Shown: in pieces, positions 1,774 to 23,983 of the stretch
How positions within the stretch are numbered: the stretch's first letter is position 1
How the letters are laid out: every line of letters begins with the position of its first letter
Assembly: GCA_003220495.1 (NCBI GenBank)
Contig: QHSP01000047.1
Coordinates: forward strand, 1-54,300
Direction of reading: 5' to 3'
Origin: Candidatus Rokuibacteriota bacterium
GTDB lineage: Bacteria > Methylomirabilota > Methylomirabilia > Rokubacteriales > CSP1-6
DNA: 54,300 bases
Notes under the pieces: generated by a model
What the model was told of the DNA's origin: nothing
What the model saw: the letters and a program-made list of their open reading frames with translations, nothing else
Database searches by the model: none
Position numbers and translations under genes: made by a program

Positions 1774-1788
1774 TGGCACCCGGCTTGC
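1774..1788 (+). promoter_or_regulatory. Sigma-54 (RpoN) promoter of the ANTAR regulator
   Basis: TGGCAC-CCGGC-TTGC matches the -24/-12 consensus TGGCAC-N5-TTGC at every fixed base. The diagnostic GG (1775-1776) and GC (1787-1788) are ten bases apart. With C1788 at -12, transcription would begin near 1800, three bases before the ATG at 1803. This supports that start codon over the upstream TTG (1785) and GTG (1797). Confidence 0.75.
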
Positions 1789-1802
1789 GAACAGCCGTGA
1801 CC

Positions 1803-2399
1803 ATGGCGAGCGAGGGGCCGAAGGGCGACCCACGCTGGCGGGTCGCGATTCTCGACGATCACGAGCGCTCGCGCGCGGCGCTTCGGGCCGCAATTTGGGC
1901 GGCGGGCGGTGAGGTGATCGGCGAGGCGGTACGCTGCGCCGATGCGCTCGCGCTGGTGCGGCGCGCGACGCCGGACGTCGCCGTGTGCGCGGTGGGACTG
2001 CCGGACGGCGACGGTGTCGAGGTGGCGCGTCAGCTGATCGAGACCGGTTGTCCCGTCGTGCTCTTCACGAGCCACACGCGCCAGGAGCTCGTCGACCGGG
2101 CGCGCTCCGCCGGCGTGATGTCCTATTTGCTCAAACCGCTTCGCTCGGCCGAGCTGGCGCCCGTCCTCGACCTGGCGGTCGCGAGGTTCGGCGAGACCCG
2201 CGCCTTGCGCCGCTCGCTGGAAGAACGGAAGGTCATCGAGCGGGCGAAGGGCCGGTTGATGGCCCGCTACCAGCTGACCGAGGACGAAGCGTTTCGCCGG
2301 CTCCGTCGCGCCGCGATGGATAGCCGCCGTCCCATGGTCGAGATCGCCAGAGCTCTGCTCGTGTCGGAGTCAGTCGCGTCGGACGTGCCTACGCATTGA
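1803..2399 (+). CDS. ANTAR-domain response regulator (AmiR/NasT type)
   Basis: A 198-residue two-domain regulator. Residues 12-130 form a CheY-like receiver with the acidic pair D18-D19, the switch Thr (LFTSHT) and the Lys of LLKPL. The phosphorylatable Asp is replaced by Ala63 (CAVGLP, where DxGLP is usual), so phosphotransfer is unlikely. Residues about 140-190 are an ANTAR RNA-binding helix bundle (VIERAKGRLMARY, then TEDEAFRRLRRAA). ANTAR proteins such as AmiR, NasR and EutV bind tandem hairpins in leader RNAs and relieve termination or change translation. The gene lies just upstream of the urea transporter, whose leader has two fitting hairpins. Control by nitrogen status is suggested by its sigma-54 promoter. 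ATG 1803 was chosen from the predicted transcript start. Confidence 0.88.
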   Translation: MASEGPKGDPRWRVAILDDHERSRAALRAAIWAAGGEVIGEAVRCADALALVRRATPDVAVCAVGLPDGDGVEVARQLIETGCPVVLFTSHTRQELVDRARSAGVMSYLLKPLRSAELAPVLDLAVARFGETRALRRSLEERKVIERAKGRLMARYQLTEDEAFRRLRRAAMDSRRPMVEIARALLVSESVASDVPTH

Positions 2400-2454: not shown

Positions 2455-2470
2455 CGGTACGGCCTTTGCT
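2455..2470 (+). promoter_or_regulatory. Sigma-54-like promoter of the urt operon
   Basis: CGGTACGGCCTTTGCT fits the sigma-54 pattern: GG (2456-2457) and GC (2468-2469) are ten bases apart, and the -12 element TTGCT is perfect. The -24 element CGGTAC matches four of six consensus bases (TGGCAC). The predicted start is about 2481, immediately before the paired hairpins. This would give urtA its own nitrogen-linked promoter in addition to read-through from the ANTAR gene. Confidence 0.6.
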
Positions 2471-2484
2471 GATACCGAGGCCAG

Positions 2485-2531
2485 CCTGCGGCCAAAGACG
2501 CTCGCGGGAGGCGCGCCAATGACGTCGCGAC
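2485..2531 (+). promoter_or_regulatory. Tandem ANTAR-type hairpins in the urtA leader
   Basis: Two adjacent stem-loops. P1 pairs 2485-2493 with 2500-2508 around the loop AAAGAC (2494-2499): nine positions with one C-C mismatch and two G-U pairs. P2 pairs 2510-2517 with 2524-2531 around the loop AATGAC (2518-2523), with two mismatches. Both loops are six bases with A at position 1 and G at position 4, the known ANTAR recognition signature, and the two hairpins resemble each other in sequence. They lie between the ANTAR gene and urtA, right after the predicted sigma-54 start. No U-tract terminator follows, so the mechanism may be translational or RNA-stability control rather than antitermination. 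Confidence 0.65.
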
Positions 2532-2560
2532 CGAGACCACCCACACGAAAGGAGACTGCA

Positions 2561-3868
2561 ATGGCGGAGTTTTCACGTCGCGACTTCATCAAAGGGGGCC
2601 TGCTGGCATCCACGGCGGTCGGCGCCGGCCTCAGCTTCCCCAACGCCCTGAGGGCGCAGGAGACCGTCAAGATCGGTGTCCTGCACTCGCTCTCGGGGAC
2701 GATGGCCATCAGCGAGGTCTCGCTCCGAGACGTCGTGCTCATGGCCGTCGAGGAGATCAACGCGAAGGGCGGCGTGATGGGCAAGAAGATCACGCCCGTC
2801 GTCGTCGATCCGGCTTCGAACTGGGATCTGTTCGCGGAGAAGGCCAAGCAGCTCCTGCTGCAAGACAAGGTCGCGTGCGTCTTCGGCTGCTGGACCTCGG
2901 TCAGCCGCAAGTCGGTGCTGCCGGTCTTCGAGAACAACAACGGCCTGCTCTTCTACCCCGTTCAGTACGAAGGCGAGGAGTGCTCGAAGAACGTCTTCTA
3001 CACCGGCGCCACGCCGAACCAGCAGCTGGTCCCGGGCGCGGAGTATCTGATGTCGAAGGAAGGCGGCAGCTACAAGAAGTTCTACCTGCTGGGTACCGAC
3101 TACGTCTTCCCGCGCACGGCCAACAAGATCCTGCGCGCGTTCCTGCTCGCCAAGGGCGTGCCGGCCGCCAACATCGAGGAAGAGTACACGCCGTTCAACC
3201 ATCAGGACTATCAGACGATCGTCGGCAAGATCAAGCGGTTCTCATCGGGCGGCGGCGCCTGCGTGCTCTCGACGATCAACGGCGACAGCAACGTGCCCTT
3301 CTACAAGGAGTTCGCGAACCAGGGGCTCCGCTCCGAGAACGCCCCGATCATGGCCTACAGCGTCGCCGAGGACGAGCTGCGGGGTATGGACACGTCGGCC
3401 CTGGTCGGGCACCTCGCCGCCTGGAACTATTTCCAGTCGGTGGACGTGCCCCAGAACAAGAAATTCGTCCAGGCGTTCAAGAACTACAGCGAGAAGACCA
3501 AGCTGCCGGGGGGCGCCAAGCGCGTCACCGACGACCCGATGGAGGCCGCCTACTTCGGCGTCTACATCTGGAAGCAGGCGGTGGAGAAGGCGAAGAGCTT
3601 CGATGTCGACCCCGTCCGCAAGGCCGTCTACGGCCAGACGTTCGTGGCGCCGGGCGGCCCGATCAAGATGCACGAGTACAACCAGCACACCTACCGGCCG
3701 GTACTGATCGGCGAGATCATGAAGGACGGCCAGTTCAAGATCATCAGCCGGGTGAAGGGCACGGGCCCGAGCGGTACGGTCGAGCCGGAGCCGTGGAGCA
3801 AGTACACGAGCCCGGACAAAGGCTGTGACTGGGTCAACCATCAGGGCACGTATCAGAAGAAGGCGTGA
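2561..3868 (+). CDS. urtA: Urea ABC transporter substrate-binding protein UrtA
   Basis: A 435-residue receptor of the branched-chain-amino-acid/amide class that captures urea (or short amides) outside the membrane and delivers it to UrtBC. The start is ATG 2561 with the ribosome site AAAGGAG at 2548-2554. The N-terminus is a twin-arginine signal (SRRDFIKGG, cleavage near LRAQE). Typical motifs follow: KIGVLHSLSGTMAISE, FGCWTSVSRKSVLPV, PVQYEGEECSKNVFY and LGTDYVFPRTANKIL. It is the first gene of urtABCDE and overlaps urtB by four bases. The close match to the UrtA pattern and the adjoining urease genes make urea the likely ligand. Confidence 0.95.
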   Translation: MAEFSRRDFIKGGLLASTAVGAGLSFPNALRAQETVKIGVLHSLSGTMAISEVSLRDVVLMAVEEINAKGGVMGKKITPVVVDPASNWDLFAEKAKQLLLQDKVACVFGCWTSVSRKSVLPVFENNNGLLFYPVQYEGEECSKNVFYTGATPNQQLVPGAEYLMSKEGGSYKKFYLLGTDYVFPRTANKILRAFLLAKGVPAANIEEEYTPFNHQDYQTIVGKIKRFSSGGGACVLSTINGDSNVPFYKEFANQGLRSENAPIMAYSVAEDELRGMDTSALVGHLAAWNYFQSVDVPQNKKFVQAFKNYSEKTKLPGGAKRVTDDPMEAAYFGVYIWKQAVEKAKSFDVDPVRKAVYGQTFVAPGGPIKMHEYNQHTYRPVLIGEIMKDGQFKIISRVKGTGPSGTVEPEPWSKYTSPDKGCDWVNHQGTYQKKA

Positions 3869-5532
3869 TCTCCCGTCTCACCGTACTCCTTTCTCTGGTC
3901 GCGTGGCTCGCCGCGGGAGCGGCGGGCCACGCGGCCGCCGCTCCCGCGGCCTCCCCCGAAGTCGCCGCGGCGCTCACCGATCTCACCGGCGACGACGCGG
4001 ACAAGCGGGAAGCGGCCGTCACCGTGATTGGCCAGACGCGCGATCCGAAGTGGATTCAATTCCTGAGCGCGCTCCGCGACGGTAGCGTCTACGCGCGCAC
4101 GCGCGCCGGCCAGACCGAGCTCGTGGTCGGTGGCAGCAAGGCCACGAAGGGCGACCAGGACGTGATCGACATCAGCGCCGCCTACGATCGCGCGTCGCTC
4201 GGCACGGTGCCGCTGACCGATCTCAAAGAAGTGCCGGCCGACCGGCGCCTCCGTCTGGCCATCAAGCCGTTCCTCGACGCCGATGAGACGCAGGCGCAGC
4301 TCGCCGACCCCGACGCCGCCGTACGGCGCGGCGCCGCCGTGAAGCTCGGCAACCAGGCCGTTGCCACCGCCGCACCCGTCGTCGAAGACGCGCTGAAGAA
4401 GGAATCCGATCGCTGGGTGCGCCACGCCCTCGCGGAGGCGCTGGCGCTGATCCACCTGGCGAACGGCACGCCGGCCCAGCGCGCCTCGGCGGCGCGGAGC
4501 CTCGGCGATCTCCATTCGGAGAGCGCGGTCCCCGCGCTCCAGCGCCTCGTGACGGACAGCACCGCGTCGCCGGCGGAACGCGGGGCGGCGATGCACGCGA
4601 TTCGAGGCATCGAGCGCTGGGGCCTCTTGACGCGCACCGTCGAGACCCTGTTCCAGGGCGCTTCGCTCGGCTCGATCCTGCTCCTGATGGCGCTCGGCCT
4701 CGCCGTCGTCTTCGGGCTGATGGGCGTGATCAACATGGCCCACGGCGAGCTCATGGCGCTCGGCGCCTACGCGACCTTCGTCGTGCAGAACTGGTTCCGC
4801 GCGGCGTGGCCGGCGCACTTCGACTCCTACTTCCTGGTGGCGCTGCCCGTCTCGTTCCTGGTGGCGGCCGCCGTGGGGCTGGTGCTCGAGCGCGGCGTGA
4901 TCCGACTCCTCTACGGACGGCCGCTCGAGACGTTGCTGTTGACGTGGGGCGCCTCGCTGATCATCCAGCAGGGGCTGCGCCTCTGGTTCGGCGCGGCGAA
5001 CGTGGACGTGAGCTCGCCGTCGTGGCTCTCGGGCGGCGTCCCCGTGATGGTCGGGCTCACCTTGCCGTACAACCGCGTGTTCATCATCGGGCTCGCGGCC
5101 GTGTCCGTGGCCGCGATGTACTGGCTGCTCTTCCGGACCAGCGCGGGCCTCCGCATCCGTGCCGTGACCCAGAACCGCGCGATGAGCTCGTGTCTCGGCG
5201 TCCGCGCCGGTGTGGTGGACGCGACGACGTTCGCATTCGGCGCCGGGCTCGCGGGTCTCGCCGGCTGCGCGCTCACGCAGATCGGCAACGTCGGCCCATC
5301 GCTCGGCCAGAACTACATCGTGGACTCGTTCATGGTGGTCGTCACCGGTGGTGTCGGCAAGCTCGCAGGGACGATCCTGGCCTCGGCCGGCCTCGGGAGC
5401 CTCACCAAAGGGATCGAGCCCGCGCTCGGCGCGGTGTTCGGCAAGGTCGCGATCCTGGTCGGTGTCATCCTCTTCCTGCAGCGGCGGCCAGCGGGCCTCT
5501 TCGCCACGCGGGGACGGAATGCCGAAGCGTGA
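3865..5532 (+). CDS. urtB: Urea ABC transporter permease UrtB
   Basis: A 555-residue permease of the LivH type. It starts at GTG 3865 inside the urtA stop (GTGA overlap). The first 20 or so residues are a signal peptide. A periplasmic HEAT-like region of about 200 residues follows (for example PDAAVRRGAAVKLGNQA), an extension that is usual for UrtB and absent from ordinary LivH. The membrane part begins near residue 260 (ASLGSILLLMALGLAVVFG) with the GVINMAHGELMALGAY motif and ends with TGGVGKLAGTILASAGLGS. It forms the inner-membrane channel with UrtC. It overlaps urtC by 14 bases. Confidence 0.95.
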   Translation: MISRLTVLLSLVAWLAAGAAGHAAAAPAASPEVAAALTDLTGDDADKREAAVTVIGQTRDPKWIQFLSALRDGSVYARTRAGQTELVVGGSKATKGDQDVIDISAAYDRASLGTVPLTDLKEVPADRRLRLAIKPFLDADETQAQLADPDAAVRRGAAVKLGNQAVATAAPVVEDALKKESDRWVRHALAEALALIHLANGTPAQRASAARSLGDLHSESAVPALQRLVTDSTASPAERGAAMHAIRGIERWGLLTRTVETLFQGASLGSILLLMALGLAVVFGLMGVINMAHGELMALGAYATFVVQNWFRAAWPAHFDSYFLVALPVSFLVAAAVGLVLERGVIRLLYGRPLETLLLTWGASLIIQQGLRLWFGAANVDVSSPSWLSGGVPVMVGLTLPYNRVFIIGLAAVSVAAMYWLLFRTSAGLRIRAVTQNRAMSSCLGVRAGVVDATTFAFGAGLAGLAGCALTQIGNVGPSLGQNYIVDSFMVVVTGGVGKLAGTILASAGLGSLTKGIEPALGAVFGKVAILVGVILFLQRRPAGLFATRGRNAEA

Positions 5533-6652
5533 GACGGTGGCGCTCGGGATCGGCGCGATCGTCGTCGCGGTCGTGCTGCCCCTGTGCAACATGCTGCCGG
5601 CGGGCTCACCGCTCGCGATCTCGAACTTCACGCTGAACCTCTTCGGCAAGTTCCTCACCTACGCGATCCTGGCGCTCGGGCTCGACCTCCTGTGGGGCTA
5701 CGCGGGCGTGCTGTCGCTCGGCCACGGCGTGTTCTTCGGCCTCGGCGCCTACGCGATGGGCATGCACCTCATGCTCGAGATCGGCTCGAAGAGCGTCTAC
5801 CAGAGCTCGCTGCCCGATTTCATGGTGTGGAACCAGGTCACCGTGCTGCCGCTCTTCTGGCGGCCCTTTCACAGCACCGCGTTCACGCTCGCGGCGATCG
5901 TGCTGGTCCCGGCGCTCTTCGGCTTCGCCTTCGGCTATCTCGCGTTCCGGAGCCGGATCCGGGGCGTCTACTTCTCGATCATCACGCAGGCGCTGGCGCT
6001 CAGCGCGTGGCTCGTGTTCAACCGCAACGAGATGAACCTCGGCGGCACCAACGGGCTCGCCGACTTCAAGACGGTCTTCGGATTCCCGTTGCACCAGCCG
6101 TCGACCCAGCGCGGCCTCTACGTCGTGACGGCGCTGACCCTGATCGGCGCGTACCTGCTCTGCCGCTGGATCACCTTGACCCGCGCGGGCAAGGTGCTCG
6201 TCGCCATCCGCGACAGCGAGACGCGCGTGCTCTTCTCCGGGTACTCGCCGGCTGCTTACAAGCTCTTCGTGTTCGTCGTGTCCGCGGCGCTCGCGGGGGC
6301 CGCCGGCGCGCTCTACGCGCCGCAAGTCGGCATCATCACGCCGGCGAAGATCGGAGTGCTGCCGTCGATCGAGATGATCGTGTGGGTCGCCGCGGGTGGA
6401 CGGGGCACGCTCTACGGCGCGGTGCTCGGCGCGTTCGGCGTGAACTGGATCCAGAGCTGGCTCACCACGAGCTACCCCGACCTCTGGCTTCTTTTCCTGG
6501 GCGGCCTCTTCATGAGCGCGGTGCTGTTCTTCCCGGACGGCGTGGTTGGCGCCATCGGCCGACTCGGCGGGCGCGTCCGCCGGCTCGTGTCGCGCCGGTC
6601 CGACCGGGCGGTCTCGACCCCCAGTGTCTCGCTCGGGCGGCCCATGCCATGA
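5519..6652 (+). CDS. urtC: Urea ABC transporter permease UrtC
   Basis: A 377-residue LivM-type permease that pairs with UrtB. ATG 5519 lies within the end of urtB and gives MPKRETVALGIG, followed by the first membrane helix; longer upstream reading in this frame is only the shadow of urtB. Family motifs visible are LGLDLLWGYAGVLSLGHGVFFGLGAYAMG, shown here only as its ends LGLDLLWGYAG and LGHGVFFGLGAY, then NLGGTNGLADF, AIRDSETRVLFSGY and VAAGGRGTLYGAVLGA. It ends in an Arg-rich cytoplasmic tail and overlaps urtD by four bases (ATGA). Confidence 0.95.
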   Translation: MPKRETVALGIGAIVVAVVLPLCNMLPAGSPLAISNFTLNLFGKFLTYAILALGLDLLWGYAGVLSLGHGVFFGLGAYAMGMHLMLEIGSKSVYQSSLPDFMVWNQVTVLPLFWRPFHSTAFTLAAIVLVPALFGFAFGYLAFRSRIRGVYFSIITQALALSAWLVFNRNEMNLGGTNGLADFKTVFGFPLHQPSTQRGLYVVTALTLIGAYLLCRWITLTRAGKVLVAIRDSETRVLFSGYSPAAYKLFVFVVSAALAGAAGALYAPQVGIITPAKIGVLPSIEMIVWVAAGGRGTLYGAVLGAFGVNWIQSWLTTSYPDLWLLFLGGLFMSAVLFFPDGVVGAIGRLGGRVRRLVSRRSDRAVSTPSVSLGRPMP

Positions 6653-7438
6653 CGCCACCTCCGCCGGCCGATCAGCCCACTCGCGCCGCCAGCATCATCT
6701 ACCTCGAAGACGTCACGGTGAACTACGACGGCTTCAAGGCGTTGAGCCGCCTCAACTTCTTCATGGACCGTCGCGAGCTCCGGGTCGTCATCGGCCCCAA
6801 CGGCGCCGGCAAGACGACCCTGCTCGACGTCGTGTCGGGGCGCGTCAAGCCCGAGAGTGGCCGCGTGATCTTCGGCCACAACACCGATCTCCTCCCGCTC
6901 CGCGAGAACGAGATCGCGCAGCTCGGCGTCGGCCGCAAGTTCCAGACCCCGTCGGTCTTCGTGAATCTCACCGTGTGGGACAACGTCGAGCTGTCGCTCC
7001 GCCGCGCCTCGAAGGGCGTGTTCGCGGCGCTCCGCCAGCGCGACGCGCGCGAGGAGCGCGATCGCATCCTCCGGACCCTGGAGACGGTGAAGCTCGCCGA
7101 TCGTGCCGACGGCAAGGCCGGAGCGCTCTCGCACGGCGAGAAGCAGTGGCTCGAGATCGGGATGGTGATCGCGCAGGATCCGGAGCTCCTGCTGGTCGAC
7201 GAGCCGGTTGCCGGCATGACCGACGAGGAGACGGAGCGGACCGGCGCGCTGCTCGAGTCGATCGCCGCGGACCGGTCGGTGCTCGTCATCGAGCACGACA
7301 TGGAGTTCGTGCGGCAGATCGCGCGTCAGGTGACGGTGCTCCATCAGGGGGCCGTGCTGTGCGAGGGGCCGGTCGAGCAGGTCCAGAGCGACCCGCGCGT
7401 CCTCGAGGTCTATCTGGGACGGCGGCGCGAGGAGGCCG

Positions 7439-7452
<14 letters not shown>
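6649..7452 (+). CDS. urtD: Urea ABC transporter ATPase UrtD
   Basis: A 267-residue cytoplasmic ATPase of the LivG type that powers urea import through UrtBC. It shows a Walker A (GPNGAGKTT, near residue 50), a Q-loop region (RKFQTPSVFVNLTVWDN), the ABC signature LSHGEKQWLEIGM, Walker B LLLVDEPVAGM and the switch His in VIEHDMEFVRQ. LSHGEKQ is the usual form for UrtD and LivG. ATG 6649 overlaps the urtC stop, and its own end overlaps urtE by 14 bases, so translation is probably coupled. Confidence 0.95.
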
Positions 7453-8128
<676 letters not shown>

Positions 8129-8151
8129 GAAGCGAGTCAGGAGGCTCGACG

Positions 8152-8454
8152 ATGCATCTCACCCCGCGCGAGCAGGAGAAGCTCCTCGTCTTCACCGCGG
8201 CCGAAGTCGCCCGCCGGCGACGCGGGCGCGGCCTCAAGCTGAACTACCCGGAGGCGCTCGCGCTCATCACGGCCGAGATCCTCGAAGGCATTCGCGACGG
8301 CCGGAGCGTCTCGGATCTGATGGCGTCGGGCCTCGACATCCTCGGCCGCGACGACGTGATGGAAGGGGTGCCCGAGATGCTCGAGGAGGTGCAGGTCGAG
8401 GGGACGTTCCCCGACGGCACCAAGCTCGTCACCATTCACCACCCTATTCGCTAA
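8152..8454 (+). CDS. ureA: Urease subunit gamma UreA
   Basis: A 100-residue gamma subunit of urease (urea hydrolysis to ammonia and CO2 in the cytoplasm). The sequence starts [14 protein letters not shown] and includes [28 protein letters not shown] and the terminal [11 protein letters not shown], all hallmarks of UreA, at the usual length. A ribosome site AGGAGG lies just upstream of ATG 8152. Unlike standard ureABC operons, a 228-base gap with a large inverted repeat and then an acetyltransferase gene separate it from ureB. Confidence 0.96.
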
Positions 8455-8510
8455 CTCTCCGGTCTTCTTGCTCATGTCAGATCTCTTGGCGGCTTGGTGG
8501 GTTGGCGTGG

Positions 8511-8649
8511 CCGGGCGCGCGTGGGAGGGCGGGGGCCCCCGGCTGGCTGCGTCACCCGCTCGCCCGAATCGCGGCTCGTCGAGCCGCGGGCGGGACGAGG
8601 GGGTCCCACTTCGCCAGCCGGGGGCCCCCTCCCTCCCACGCGCGCCCGG
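8511..8649. repeat. Long inverted repeat (37-bp arms) between ureA and the GNAT gene
   Basis: The arm 8511-8547 is the reverse complement of 8613-8649 with a single mismatch (position 8530). The 65-base loop holds a further perfect 8-bp hairpin, 8570-8577 with 8581-8588. It could be a small transposable or REP-like element, an attenuator, or an mRNA-stabilising structure inside the urease operon. There is no U-tract, so it is not a standard intrinsic terminator. Confidence 0.85.
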
Positions 8650-8682
8650 CGGGCCACGTTCCGGCCGGCGAGCGTCTCTTCC

Positions 8683-9252
8683 ATGAACGCGAGATCGGAA
8701 CGCGCGGCGACTGGATCGGTCGTGATCGAGGTGCTTGGTATCGACTCTGCCATGCGAGAGCTGACGGGGTTGGTGGTGTTGCTCAAGGACGCGGTGGATT
8801 CAGGAGCATCGGTGGGGTTCTTGCCGCCGATGGCGGAGGCCGAGGGGCAGGCGTACTGGCGGAGTGTGGTCGAGGCGGTGCGGGAGGGGTCGTGTGTCTT
8901 GCTGGGGGCGCGCGAGGCGGATGGGACGCTCGTCGGCACCGCGCAGCTCTTGCTGGCGACCCGGCCGAACGGGTCGCATCGGGCCGAGGTGGCCAAGGTG
9001 ATGGTTCACACGAAGGCGCGCCGCCGGGGGATCGGGCGCGCGCTCATGCTGGCGATCGAGGCGCGCGCGCGGGGACTCGGCCGCACCACCCTGGTGCTCG
9101 ACACGCGGCGGGGCGACCCGTCGGAGGGGCTCTACACAGCAGTCGGCTACACCCTCGCGGGAGTGATCCCGCGATATGCGCGCAGCGCGAATGGCGCCCT
9201 CGATCCGAGCGCGTTGTACTACCGGTTGTTGACCGAAGGAGACCAACCGTGA
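8683..9252 (+). CDS. GNAT family N-acetyltransferase inside the urease operon
   Basis: A 189-residue acetyl-CoA-dependent acyltransferase. The GNAT core is visible as [19 protein letters not shown] (motif A, with the pyrophosphate-binding R-x-x-G-x-G/A as RRRGIGRA) and the C-terminal segment [21 protein letters not shown] 8683 is chosen because the open frame upstream of it lies within the inverted repeat and is low-complexity Arg/Gly/Pro. Its stop overlaps the ureB start (GTGA), so it is translationally coupled to urease. The substrate is unknown. Candidates would be a small amine, or a nitrogen-metabolism protein. Confidence 0.88.
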
Positions 9253-9595
9253 TTCCCGGCGAGTATCTGCTCGGTGAGGGCGACATCATCGCGAATCAGG
9301 GCCGCCGAACGGTCGAGCTGACCGTGACCAACACAGGCGATCGCCCGATCCAGATCGGCTCGCACTTCCACTTCTTCGAGGTCAACCGCGCGCTCCGCTT
9401 CGAGCGCGCTCGAGCGTTCGGGATGCGGCTCAACGTGCCGGCGGGCACGGCCGTGCGCTTCGAGCCCGGCGACGAGAAGCGCGTCACGCTCGTCGAGCTC
9501 GGCGGGACGCGCCGCGTCTTCGGCCTGAACGCGCTGACCGAGGGCGGCGGCCGCGAGCAAGCGCTCGCGAAGCTCGCGGCGTGGGAGCGCCGCTC

Positions 9596-9599
<4 letters not shown>
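9249..9599 (+). CDS. ureB: Urease subunit beta UreB
   Basis: A 116-residue beta subunit of urease. It starts at GTG 9249 ([13 protein letters not shown]), overlapping the acetyltransferase stop. Family motifs are present: [21 protein letters not shown], seen here as [16 protein letters not shown], then [20 protein letters not shown] and [10 protein letters not shown]. Length is normal. It overlaps ureC by four bases (ATGA). Confidence 0.96.
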
Positions 9600-11313
<1,714 letters not shown>

Positions 11314-11314
<1 letters not shown>

Positions 11315-22441: not shown

Positions 22442-23983
22442 GAGTCTGTCGGAGAAAAGTGAGTGACCACGGGGGGCGCAGTCGCTAACGTGTTGGCCAT
22501 GACGAAAGCGTTTCGGCCGTACACGCTGGACCAGCAGTTGCTGCTGCCGCCCGACATGCGGCAGTGGCTGCCGGAAGGCGACCTGGCGCTGTTCATCAGC
22601 GACGTGGTGGACGAGCTGGATCTGTCAGTCATCTACGGCTCGTATGAGACGGGCGACGGGCGGGGCCAACCGCCGTATGACCCAGCGATGCTGGTGAAGG
22701 TGCTGCTCTATGCCTACTGCACGGGCCTGCGGTCGTCGCGGAAGATCGAGCGCGCGACCTATCGCGATGTCGCCATCCGCGTGTTGGCCGGCGACCAGCA
22801 TCCCGACCACGACAGCATTGCCGCGTTCCGCCAGCGCCATTTGCCGGCACTGGCCGGGCTGTTCGTGCAAGGTCTGCGGCTGTGCCAGGCCGCGGGCCTG
22901 GTGAAATTGGGTCATGTGGCGCTGGACGGGACCAAGGTGCAGGCCAATGCCTCCAAGCACAAGGCGATGAGCTATGCGCGGATGAACGAATCGGAGCATC
23001 AGCTCGAGCGCGAAGTGCGAGCGCTGCTCGACCAGGCGGTGCAGGCCGATGCGGCCGAGGACGCGCAATACGGCGCGGGGCAGCGCGGCGATGACCTGCC
23101 GGTCGAGCTGGCGCGCCGGGCGAGCCGACTCGCCAAGATCCGGGCCGCCAAGGCGGTGCTGGAACAGCAGGCGCGCGACGAGGCCGCGCGCGCCGCTGAC
23201 GCCGGGCGGGCGAAGGTGACGGCGCGCGAGCAGCGGGTGGGCTCGGCCAAGGGCCGGGTGCCCAACGTCCCGGACCCCGCGCAGGCGCAGCCGGCGCCCG
23301 GGGCGCAGTACAACTTCACAGACCCGGCCTCGCGCATCATGCTGGATGGGGCGAGCAAGAGCTGGGTGCAGGCCTACAACGCGCAGGCCGTGGTGGATGC
23401 CCAGGCCCAAGTCATCGTGGCCTGCACCGTCACACAGGAGGCCACCGACGTCCAGCAGTTCGTGCCGTTGCTGACTCAGGTGCAGACCAACACCGGCCAG
23501 CGGCCCTCGATTGTGACGGCCGATGCCGGCTATTTCAGCGAAGCGAATCTGACCGCCGCCGCCGTCGAGGGCATCGACTGTTACGTGCCGCCGGACCGGC
23601 ACTCGCATGGCCGGGCCGCGGCGCCGACCGCGCGGACGCGGAGCGCGGTCGCGGAGTGGATGCGCGAGAAGCTGCGCGCGCCCGAAGGCCGGCAGGTCTA
23701 CGCACGCCGCAAGGCGATCGTCGAGCCGGTCTTTGGCCAAGCCAAGGAGGGCCGGGCCTTTCGGCGCTTCTTCTTCCGCGGCTACGACAAGGTCGCCGCG
23801 GAGTGGGCGCTGATCTGCCTGACCCACAATCTGCTCAAGCTCTTCCGAGGGCGGACGTGCCCGCAACCAGCGTAGCCTCGCGGCCGTGATCTGCTTCGCC
23901 ACGCCTCGACTCGTAAGTGGGGTCGCGCGCATCCACGCAACCGGCCGGCTCCAACGCGCCATGACCATTACGCCGACAGGCTC
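22442..23983 (+). mobile_element. IS1182-type insertion sequence
   Basis: A 1542-bp element. The left end GAGTCTGTCGGAG and the inverted right end GAGCCTGTCGGCG form terminal inverted repeats (11 of the first 13 bases match). It is flanked on both sides by CTAG (22438-22441 and 23984-23987), a palindromic four-base target duplication. It holds one transposase gene with no internal stops, so it looks intact and recent. The right copy of CTAG supplies the TAG stop of the neighbouring minus-strand regulator. Confidence 0.88.
22499..23875 (+). CDS. IS1182 family DDE transposase
   Basis: A 458-residue transposase, full length for the group. It starts at ATG 22499 (MTKAFRPYTLDQQLLLPPDM), a usual IS1182-family start; the frame is open 12 codons further up. 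The N-terminal DUF772-type region contains GQPPYDPAMLVKVLLYAYC and RATYRDVAIRVLAGDQHPDH. The catalytic DDE residues are expected in HVALDGTKVQANASKH, TADAGYFSEAN and, near the end, RKAIVEPVFGQAKEGRAFR, where the usual Asp, Asp and Glu are visible. Codon use is as GC-rich as the host's. Confidence 0.95.
   Translation: MTKAFRPYTLDQQLLLPPDMRQWLPEGDLALFISDVVDELDLSVIYGSYETGDGRGQPPYDPAMLVKVLLYAYCTGLRSSRKIERATYRDVAIRVLAGDQHPDHDSIAAFRQRHLPALAGLFVQGLRLCQAAGLVKLGHVALDGTKVQANASKHKAMSYARMNESEHQLEREVRALLDQAVQADAAEDAQYGAGQRGDDLPVELARRASRLAKIRAAKAVLEQQARDEAARAADAGRAKVTAREQRVGSAKGRVPNVPDPAQAQPAPGAQYNFTDPASRIMLDGASKSWVQAYNAQAVVDAQAQVIVACTVTQEATDVQQFVPLLTQVQTNTGQRPSIVTADAGYFSEANLTAAAVEGIDCYVPPDRHSHGRAAAPTARTRSAVAEWMREKLRAPEGRQVYARRKAIVEPVFGQAKEGRAFRRFFFRGYDKVAAEWALICLTHNLLKLFRGRTCPQPA

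Follow-up and report, generated by a model that had tools for sequence, protein, structure and literature searches.

In the Pseudomonas AmiC–AmiR system, AmiR is a pseudo-receiver ANTAR protein, and the amide genes use an intrinsic terminator. NasT is a receiver–ANTAR regulator that controls nitrogen uptake genes through leader RNA, as at the nasA, nosR and nirA leaders (PMC3795266, PMC5424462, PMC6759348), and in the NasS–NasT system antitermination responds to nitrate via NasS. EutV, the receiver of which is phosphorylated, acts on the eutP leader, where two hairpins with six-base loops bearing A at position 1 and G at position 4 (A1/G4) are held at a strict spacing and the second hairpin (P2) overlaps an intrinsic terminator, according to PMC3369931 and PMC8934654. 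The Rfam narK RNA (RF03032) has a sigma-54 −24/−12 element followed by two A1/G4 hexaloop hairpins, the narK-type leaders inspected have a U-run terminator, and their sequences suggest that the narK RNA is a target of a NasT-type ANTAR protein. Sub-threshold matches to RF03032 in Burkholderiales (L167–L173) combine the sigma-54 element and A1/G4 hairpins with a U-run terminator, and are followed by NrtA-like genes and a gene for a narK-like transporter. Urea transporters themselves are listed among genes with predicted ANTAR motifs in the portion of Ramesh et al. 2012 (PMC3369931) used here, and so ANTAR control of urea uptake, which an earlier note on this DNA had called unknown, is not new as an idea. 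That portion mentions neither an adjacent ANTAR–urtA locus nor Rokubacteria.

The window analysed here is a whole 54.3-kb contig (G000:C107) from a genome all of whose close named relatives belong to Candidatus Rokuibacteriota, and the genomes used are metagenome-assembled. Its urea uptake locus has the following features.

1774..1789, plus strand: sigma-54 promoter of the ANTAR gene, TGGCACCCGGCTTGCG (from sequence; kept in 61 of 69 ANTAR loci, which include some duplicates and a few in which the promoter match is the urtA promoter)
1803..2399, plus strand: receiver–ANTAR regulator gene, NasT/AmiR-like (Pfam ANTAR 2.9e-22, Response_reg 4.6e-17)
2455..2470, plus strand: sigma-54 −24/−12 promoter of urtA (from sequence; kept in 32 of 36 urtA leaders)
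2485..2508, plus strand: hairpin P1, hexaloop AAAGAC at 2494–2499 (fold, conservation, covariation, model R1)
2510..2531, plus strand: hairpin P2, hexaloop AATGAC at 2518–2523 (fold, conservation, covariation)
2548..2554, plus strand: Shine–Dalgarno (SD) sequence of urtA, AAAGGAG (from sequence; kept in relatives)
2561..3868, plus strand: urtA, urea ABC transporter substrate-binding protein (TIGR03407, 567.8 bits)
3865..11314, plus strand: urtB, urtC, urtD, urtE, ureA (gamma), ureB (beta) and ureC (alpha), the remaining operon as far as read (NCBIfam UrtB–UrtE and urease subunit models above cut-offs)
near 8494–9252, plus strand: acetyltransferase-like reading frame ahead of ureB, inside the operon

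The first gene of urtABCDE–ureABC is urtA. In agreement with the earlier note, the ANTAR gene ends about 160 bases before it (stop at 2399, urtA ATG at 2561, gap of 161 nt), and inspection of the sequence shows the −24/−12 element, with GG at 2456–2457, GC at 2468–2469 and 10 bases between them, giving a predicted start near 2481. The locus resembles the NasT systems in that a receiver–ANTAR regulator would act on nitrogen uptake genes through leader RNA, a likeness extended in relatives by nrtA-like targets and a nirA-like neighbour; it differs from NasS–NasT in that the ANTAR gene has no NasS gene beside it and the transporter putatively controlled is that for urea. A sigma-54 element with tandem ANTAR-like hairpins at much the same distance behind it is already the layout of the narK RNA, but the urtA leader lacks a U-run terminator and precedes a different gene. 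Membership of the urtA leader in the Rfam family was rejected, as whole-model alignment of the window leader with RF03032 gave 25.4 bits, under the gathering score of 43.2, and RF03032 did not detect this leader in a search of 65 kb (E up to 1) or of the whole genome.

The ANTAR domain encoded just upstream of urtA is the only one in the genome, and EutV and Rv1626 are homologues of the protein. Since the phospho-acceptor Asp of the receiver is replaced by Ala in every homologue aligned across this position, the sequence identifies the protein as a pseudo-receiver like AmiR, in contrast to EutV. Most of the residues through which EutV contacts RNA (taken from PMC8934654) are conserved: the window protein has R142, K143, E146, K149, E160, R168, M172 and R175 unchanged, with D in place of N173, P in place of R177 and F in place of Y164. 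The start codon at 1803 lies just past a predicted sigma-54 start near 1800, leaving the mRNA nearly leaderless, and in 61 of the 69 loci (among L002–L142) the start codon is usually 2–5 nt past the predicted start, so that a sigma-54-driven, apparently leaderless ANTAR mRNA is conserved across loci. No dedicated sensor gene was found near the ANTAR gene, and a search of the genome for sensor families yielded 40 PF13433 and 13 PF13379 matches, too many paralogues for any to be assigned as the partner.

An ANTAR orthologue followed by urtA is found across the family, and where the contig extends far enough, nearly all Rokubacteria have the ANTAR gene upstream of urtA. Rokubacterial genomes without the ANTAR gene are mostly without urtA as well, and the same-family genomes that lack it (G005, G009, G014, G019, G022, G027, G028 and G031) have no urtA at the threshold used. 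In G017, urtA and the ANTAR gene are on separate contigs and the urtA hairpins are kept, indicating that the motif does not simply come along with the 3' end of the ANTAR gene. In three genera (g18, g14 and g8) the promoter is ahead of the ANTAR gene, and the hairpins still lie between this gene and urtA, the second hairpin of L014 deviating from the consensus. Both arrangements favour a regulator acting in trans and tell against hairpins that merely accompany the neighbouring gene.

The positions and loops of the two stem-loops in the window are those that the earlier note gave, and each stem contains mismatches on which that note was silent. The arms of P1 (5' arm 2485–2493, 3' arm 2500–2508) have a C·C mismatch at 2492/2501 beneath the closing C–G pair, and the core pairs of P2 (2512–2529) have a C·U mismatch at 2516/2525 beneath the closing C–G pair and a G·A mismatch near the base. 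A mismatch directly beneath the P2 closing pair is frequent (L058, L062, L063, L075 and the window at 2516/2525), and it also occurs in terminator-type leaders in which the P2 3' arm doubles as a terminator arm. Also as claimed, P2 ends 16 nt ahead of the SD sequence and no U-run terminator is present in the window leader. Both hairpins form when 2481–2535 is folded by RNAfold (−20.0 kcal/mol), but this energy is no better than that of dinucleotide shuffles (z −0.27), so that folding energy was rejected as proof of the hairpins and the case depends on comparison among leaders. A model built from urtA leaders (R1), to which the window sequence itself contributed, matches 2454–2532 with 79.1 bits; a weak R1 match at 22805–22879 of the window showed no sign of function on inspection.

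The comparison covered 36 distinct Rokubacterial urtA leaders. Strict tandem A1/G4 hairpins were found by script in 23 of them, as against 5% of shuffled leaders. A loop-anchored reading, in which the loops were picked by eye and the A1/G4 counts are therefore partly by construction, placed P1 in all 36 leaders (A1 in 35, G4 in 35) and P2 in 29 (A1 and G4 in every one); L005 has no G4 in P1, and L024 has G at position 1 of P1. A MAFFT alignment of 17 leaders, in which loop positions did not serve as a guide, shows 90–100% conservation at A1 and G4 in each loop and variation at the adjacent loop positions. The closing C–G pair is present in 36/36 P1 and 28/29 P2 hairpins. The two loops lie 18 nt apart in 19 of 29 leaders and 15–19 nt apart in 27, and in each of the 32 leaders that have a promoter of their own the P1 loop is 21–27 nt from the −12 element. 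P1 is clear and P2 is not in L023, L135, L139, L160 and L162–L164, which are possibly single-hairpin ANTAR leaders.

The stems vary in a compensatory manner. The P1 stem of the window clade is GGCC/GYYC; others have GGAC/GTCC, and a second site, ahead of amtB, has GCGAC/GTCGC. Across 27 sites, 86% of cells are paired compared with 70% after shuffling, and 34 cells carry double changes compared with a mean of 11 and a maximum of 19 in 1000 shuffles, which leave shared ancestry in place. The counts are not significant in the closer set of 17 leaders, and so the support from covariation comes from the wider set and the paralogous sites. The check attached to the earlier note, covariation in both stems together with invariant A1 and G4 in related urtA leaders, thus came out in its favour, with compensatory changes present and A1/G4 nearly fixed. 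This comparative evidence marks the hairpins of the window as true targets of the ANTAR type, kept by selection. An intrinsic terminator is missing from 35 of the 36 urtA leaders, the window included, as judged by the lack of a run of four or more T; in the remaining one, L024 (G024), P2 is overlapped by a terminator.

The second site in the genome of the window, ahead of the ammonium transporter gene amtB, was found by R1 at E 0.02. A sigma-54 element and P1 are present there, and P2 overlaps the terminator GGCGCCCGA-agu-CGGGCGCC-U8, the 3' arm of P2 being the 5' arm of this strong U8 terminator (fold z −3.15). The E-value of this site is weak alone; what carries the call is that four congeners have matching sites, that P2 overlaps a terminator and that a sigma-54 element is present. 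A third type of site, also with a terminator, lies ahead of an nrtA-like gene in G034 and G076. One pattern finds eight strict sigma-54 sites in the genome, with hairpins at urtA and amtB and none at the remaining sites inspected (L083 and L087, minus strand, lay outside this inspection), and a pattern search for further targets in the same genome gave only amtB as a matching terminator-type site. P2 overlaps an intrinsic terminator at amtB and not at urtA of the same genome, and we infer classical antitermination at amtB and nrtA. Another ANTAR-type site with a terminator, L068 (G006:C9:17632-17701), lies ahead of a gene of which 83 codons were read.

Because the hairpins are genuine targets and the genome has only one ANTAR gene, control of urtABCDE–ure by the adjacent ANTAR protein is the best reading of the locus. 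The sequence elements, conserved and covarying as described, are shown by the sequences themselves, as are the lone ANTAR gene and the amtB attenuator. Under nitrogen limitation, sigma-54 polymerase would transcribe the ANTAR gene and urtABCDE–ure, and P1 and P2 would be exposed in the first 50 nt of the urtA transcript. A dimer of the adjacent pseudo-receiver protein would then bind P1 and P2, thereby licensing expression of the urea operon, and the same protein would license amtB by classical antitermination at its intrinsic terminator. The urtA leader is probably a true target RNA for ANTAR binding, which licenses the urea operon in this way, with the same protein antiterminating amtB. That the protein binds, that binding activates and how the last step at urtA proceeds are what we infer from these results. 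Against this reading count the unremarkable energies, the stem mismatches, the changed contact residues, the relatives in which P1 alone is clear, the lack of a dedicated sensor gene nearby and the missing terminator read-out, which is usual for ANTAR proteins.

The last step at urtA may be elongation control through non-intrinsic, for example Rho-dependent, termination. This is tentatively taken as the most likely step, by elimination, since neither an intrinsic terminator nor a ribosome-site switch is detectable, and by analogy to amtB. A C-rich segment of Rho type between P2 and the SD sequence is weak (mean C minus G of 0.09 compared with 0.02, p 0.03) and was left unused as evidence. Regulation of translation or of mRNA stability comes next and is possible, if rather less so. 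There is a serious possibility, falling just short of probable, that across Rokubacteria an ANTAR protein controls the sigma-54 urea operon by an undescribed ANTAR mechanism, through tandem hairpins overlapping neither an intrinsic terminator nor the ribosome site, with classical antitermination by the same protein at amtB and nrtA.

The earlier note had coupled control of the operon by the ANTAR protein, which the target hairpins and the lone adjacent ANTAR gene support, to a possible translational route, which finds no such support. By this route, ANTAR protein at P2 would alter ribosome access to the urtA start, for example by competing with a helix between the P2 arm (2520–2537) and urtA codons (2569–2588). 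Translational repression by an ANTAR protein in mycobacteria (PMC8164766) lends it precedent. Members of the window clade have GTCGCGAC as the P2 3' arm and GTCGCGAC among the twin-arginine codons; these two stretches can pair, with the SD sequence and the AUG enclosed between them, and in L006/L007 a T-to-C change in the leader is matched by an A-to-G change in the codons, which restores the pair. However, the strength of this duplex is inside the shuffled range (p 0.12–0.44) and the pairing is missing outside the window clade, so that the helix was rejected as a switch. Moreover, P2 ends 30–73 nt ahead of the ATG, too far for direct occlusion, and lies outside the SD sequence and the usual 30S footprint. 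Forcing P2 in 27 leaders changed the opening energy of the start region by −3.3 to +2.2 kcal/mol, now up and now down, so that ribosome-site accessibility gains nothing consistent. Direct translational control at the urtA start is therefore unlikely.

The comparison with AmiC–AmiR raises another way in which the protein could be governed. AmiC (1pea/1qo0) is a sequence homologue of UrtA (E 1.7e-45), and UrtA might have a second role, sensing urea for the AmiR-like ANTAR protein. UrtA differs from AmiC in being an exported transporter subunit, and its complex with the ANTAR protein is putative. UrtA has a twin-arginine motif, SRRDFIK (the match to the TAT signal model is weak and below cut-off), and on account of this motif it is expected to fold in the cytoplasm. 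By analogy with AmiC, such a sensor role is conceivable and improbable.

The hairpins could also serve as a decoy or in feedback, titrating the ANTAR protein in the manner of an EutX-type RNA, with urtA itself not directly controlled. The leader has no terminator and no overlap with the ribosome site, and sigma-54 drives the RNA and the protein alike, as would fit titration; in every arrangement, however, including those with the promoter before the ANTAR gene and with an unlinked ANTAR gene, the hairpins are directly upstream of urtA, which makes a decoy quite improbable. A further alternative, that the elements are bound as DNA, for example by an enhancer-binding protein, or are GC-rich palindromes that arose by chance, is in line with a hairpin energy not below that of shuffles and yet highly improbable, given the strand-specific A1 and G4 amid variable neighbours, the compensatory stem changes, the position just past the start site and the similar motif overlapping the terminator at amtB and nrtA.

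With the preferred reading, control of the urea operon by the adjacent ANTAR protein, what is new in the sequences compared is the conserved terminator-free form, the phylum-wide ANTAR–urtA locus and the predicted nitrogen-uptake regulon. An uncultured soil phylum would thereby gain a concrete regulon for the uptake of urea, ammonium and nitrate under one RNA-binding protein, and this genome offers a natural pair of sites, one with a terminator and one lacking it, for learning what else ANTAR binding does besides antitermination.

Two further observations concern other parts of the contig. An Rfam 5_ureB_sRNA match (58.3 bits) lies at 9751–10044 of the window on the minus strand, antisense to the coding sequence of ureC (urease alpha). 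At the contig end, positions 1–60 of the window contain GACGTAGATCCCCGACGGCAGCTGG in a near-exact tandem repeat, perhaps an assembly artefact.
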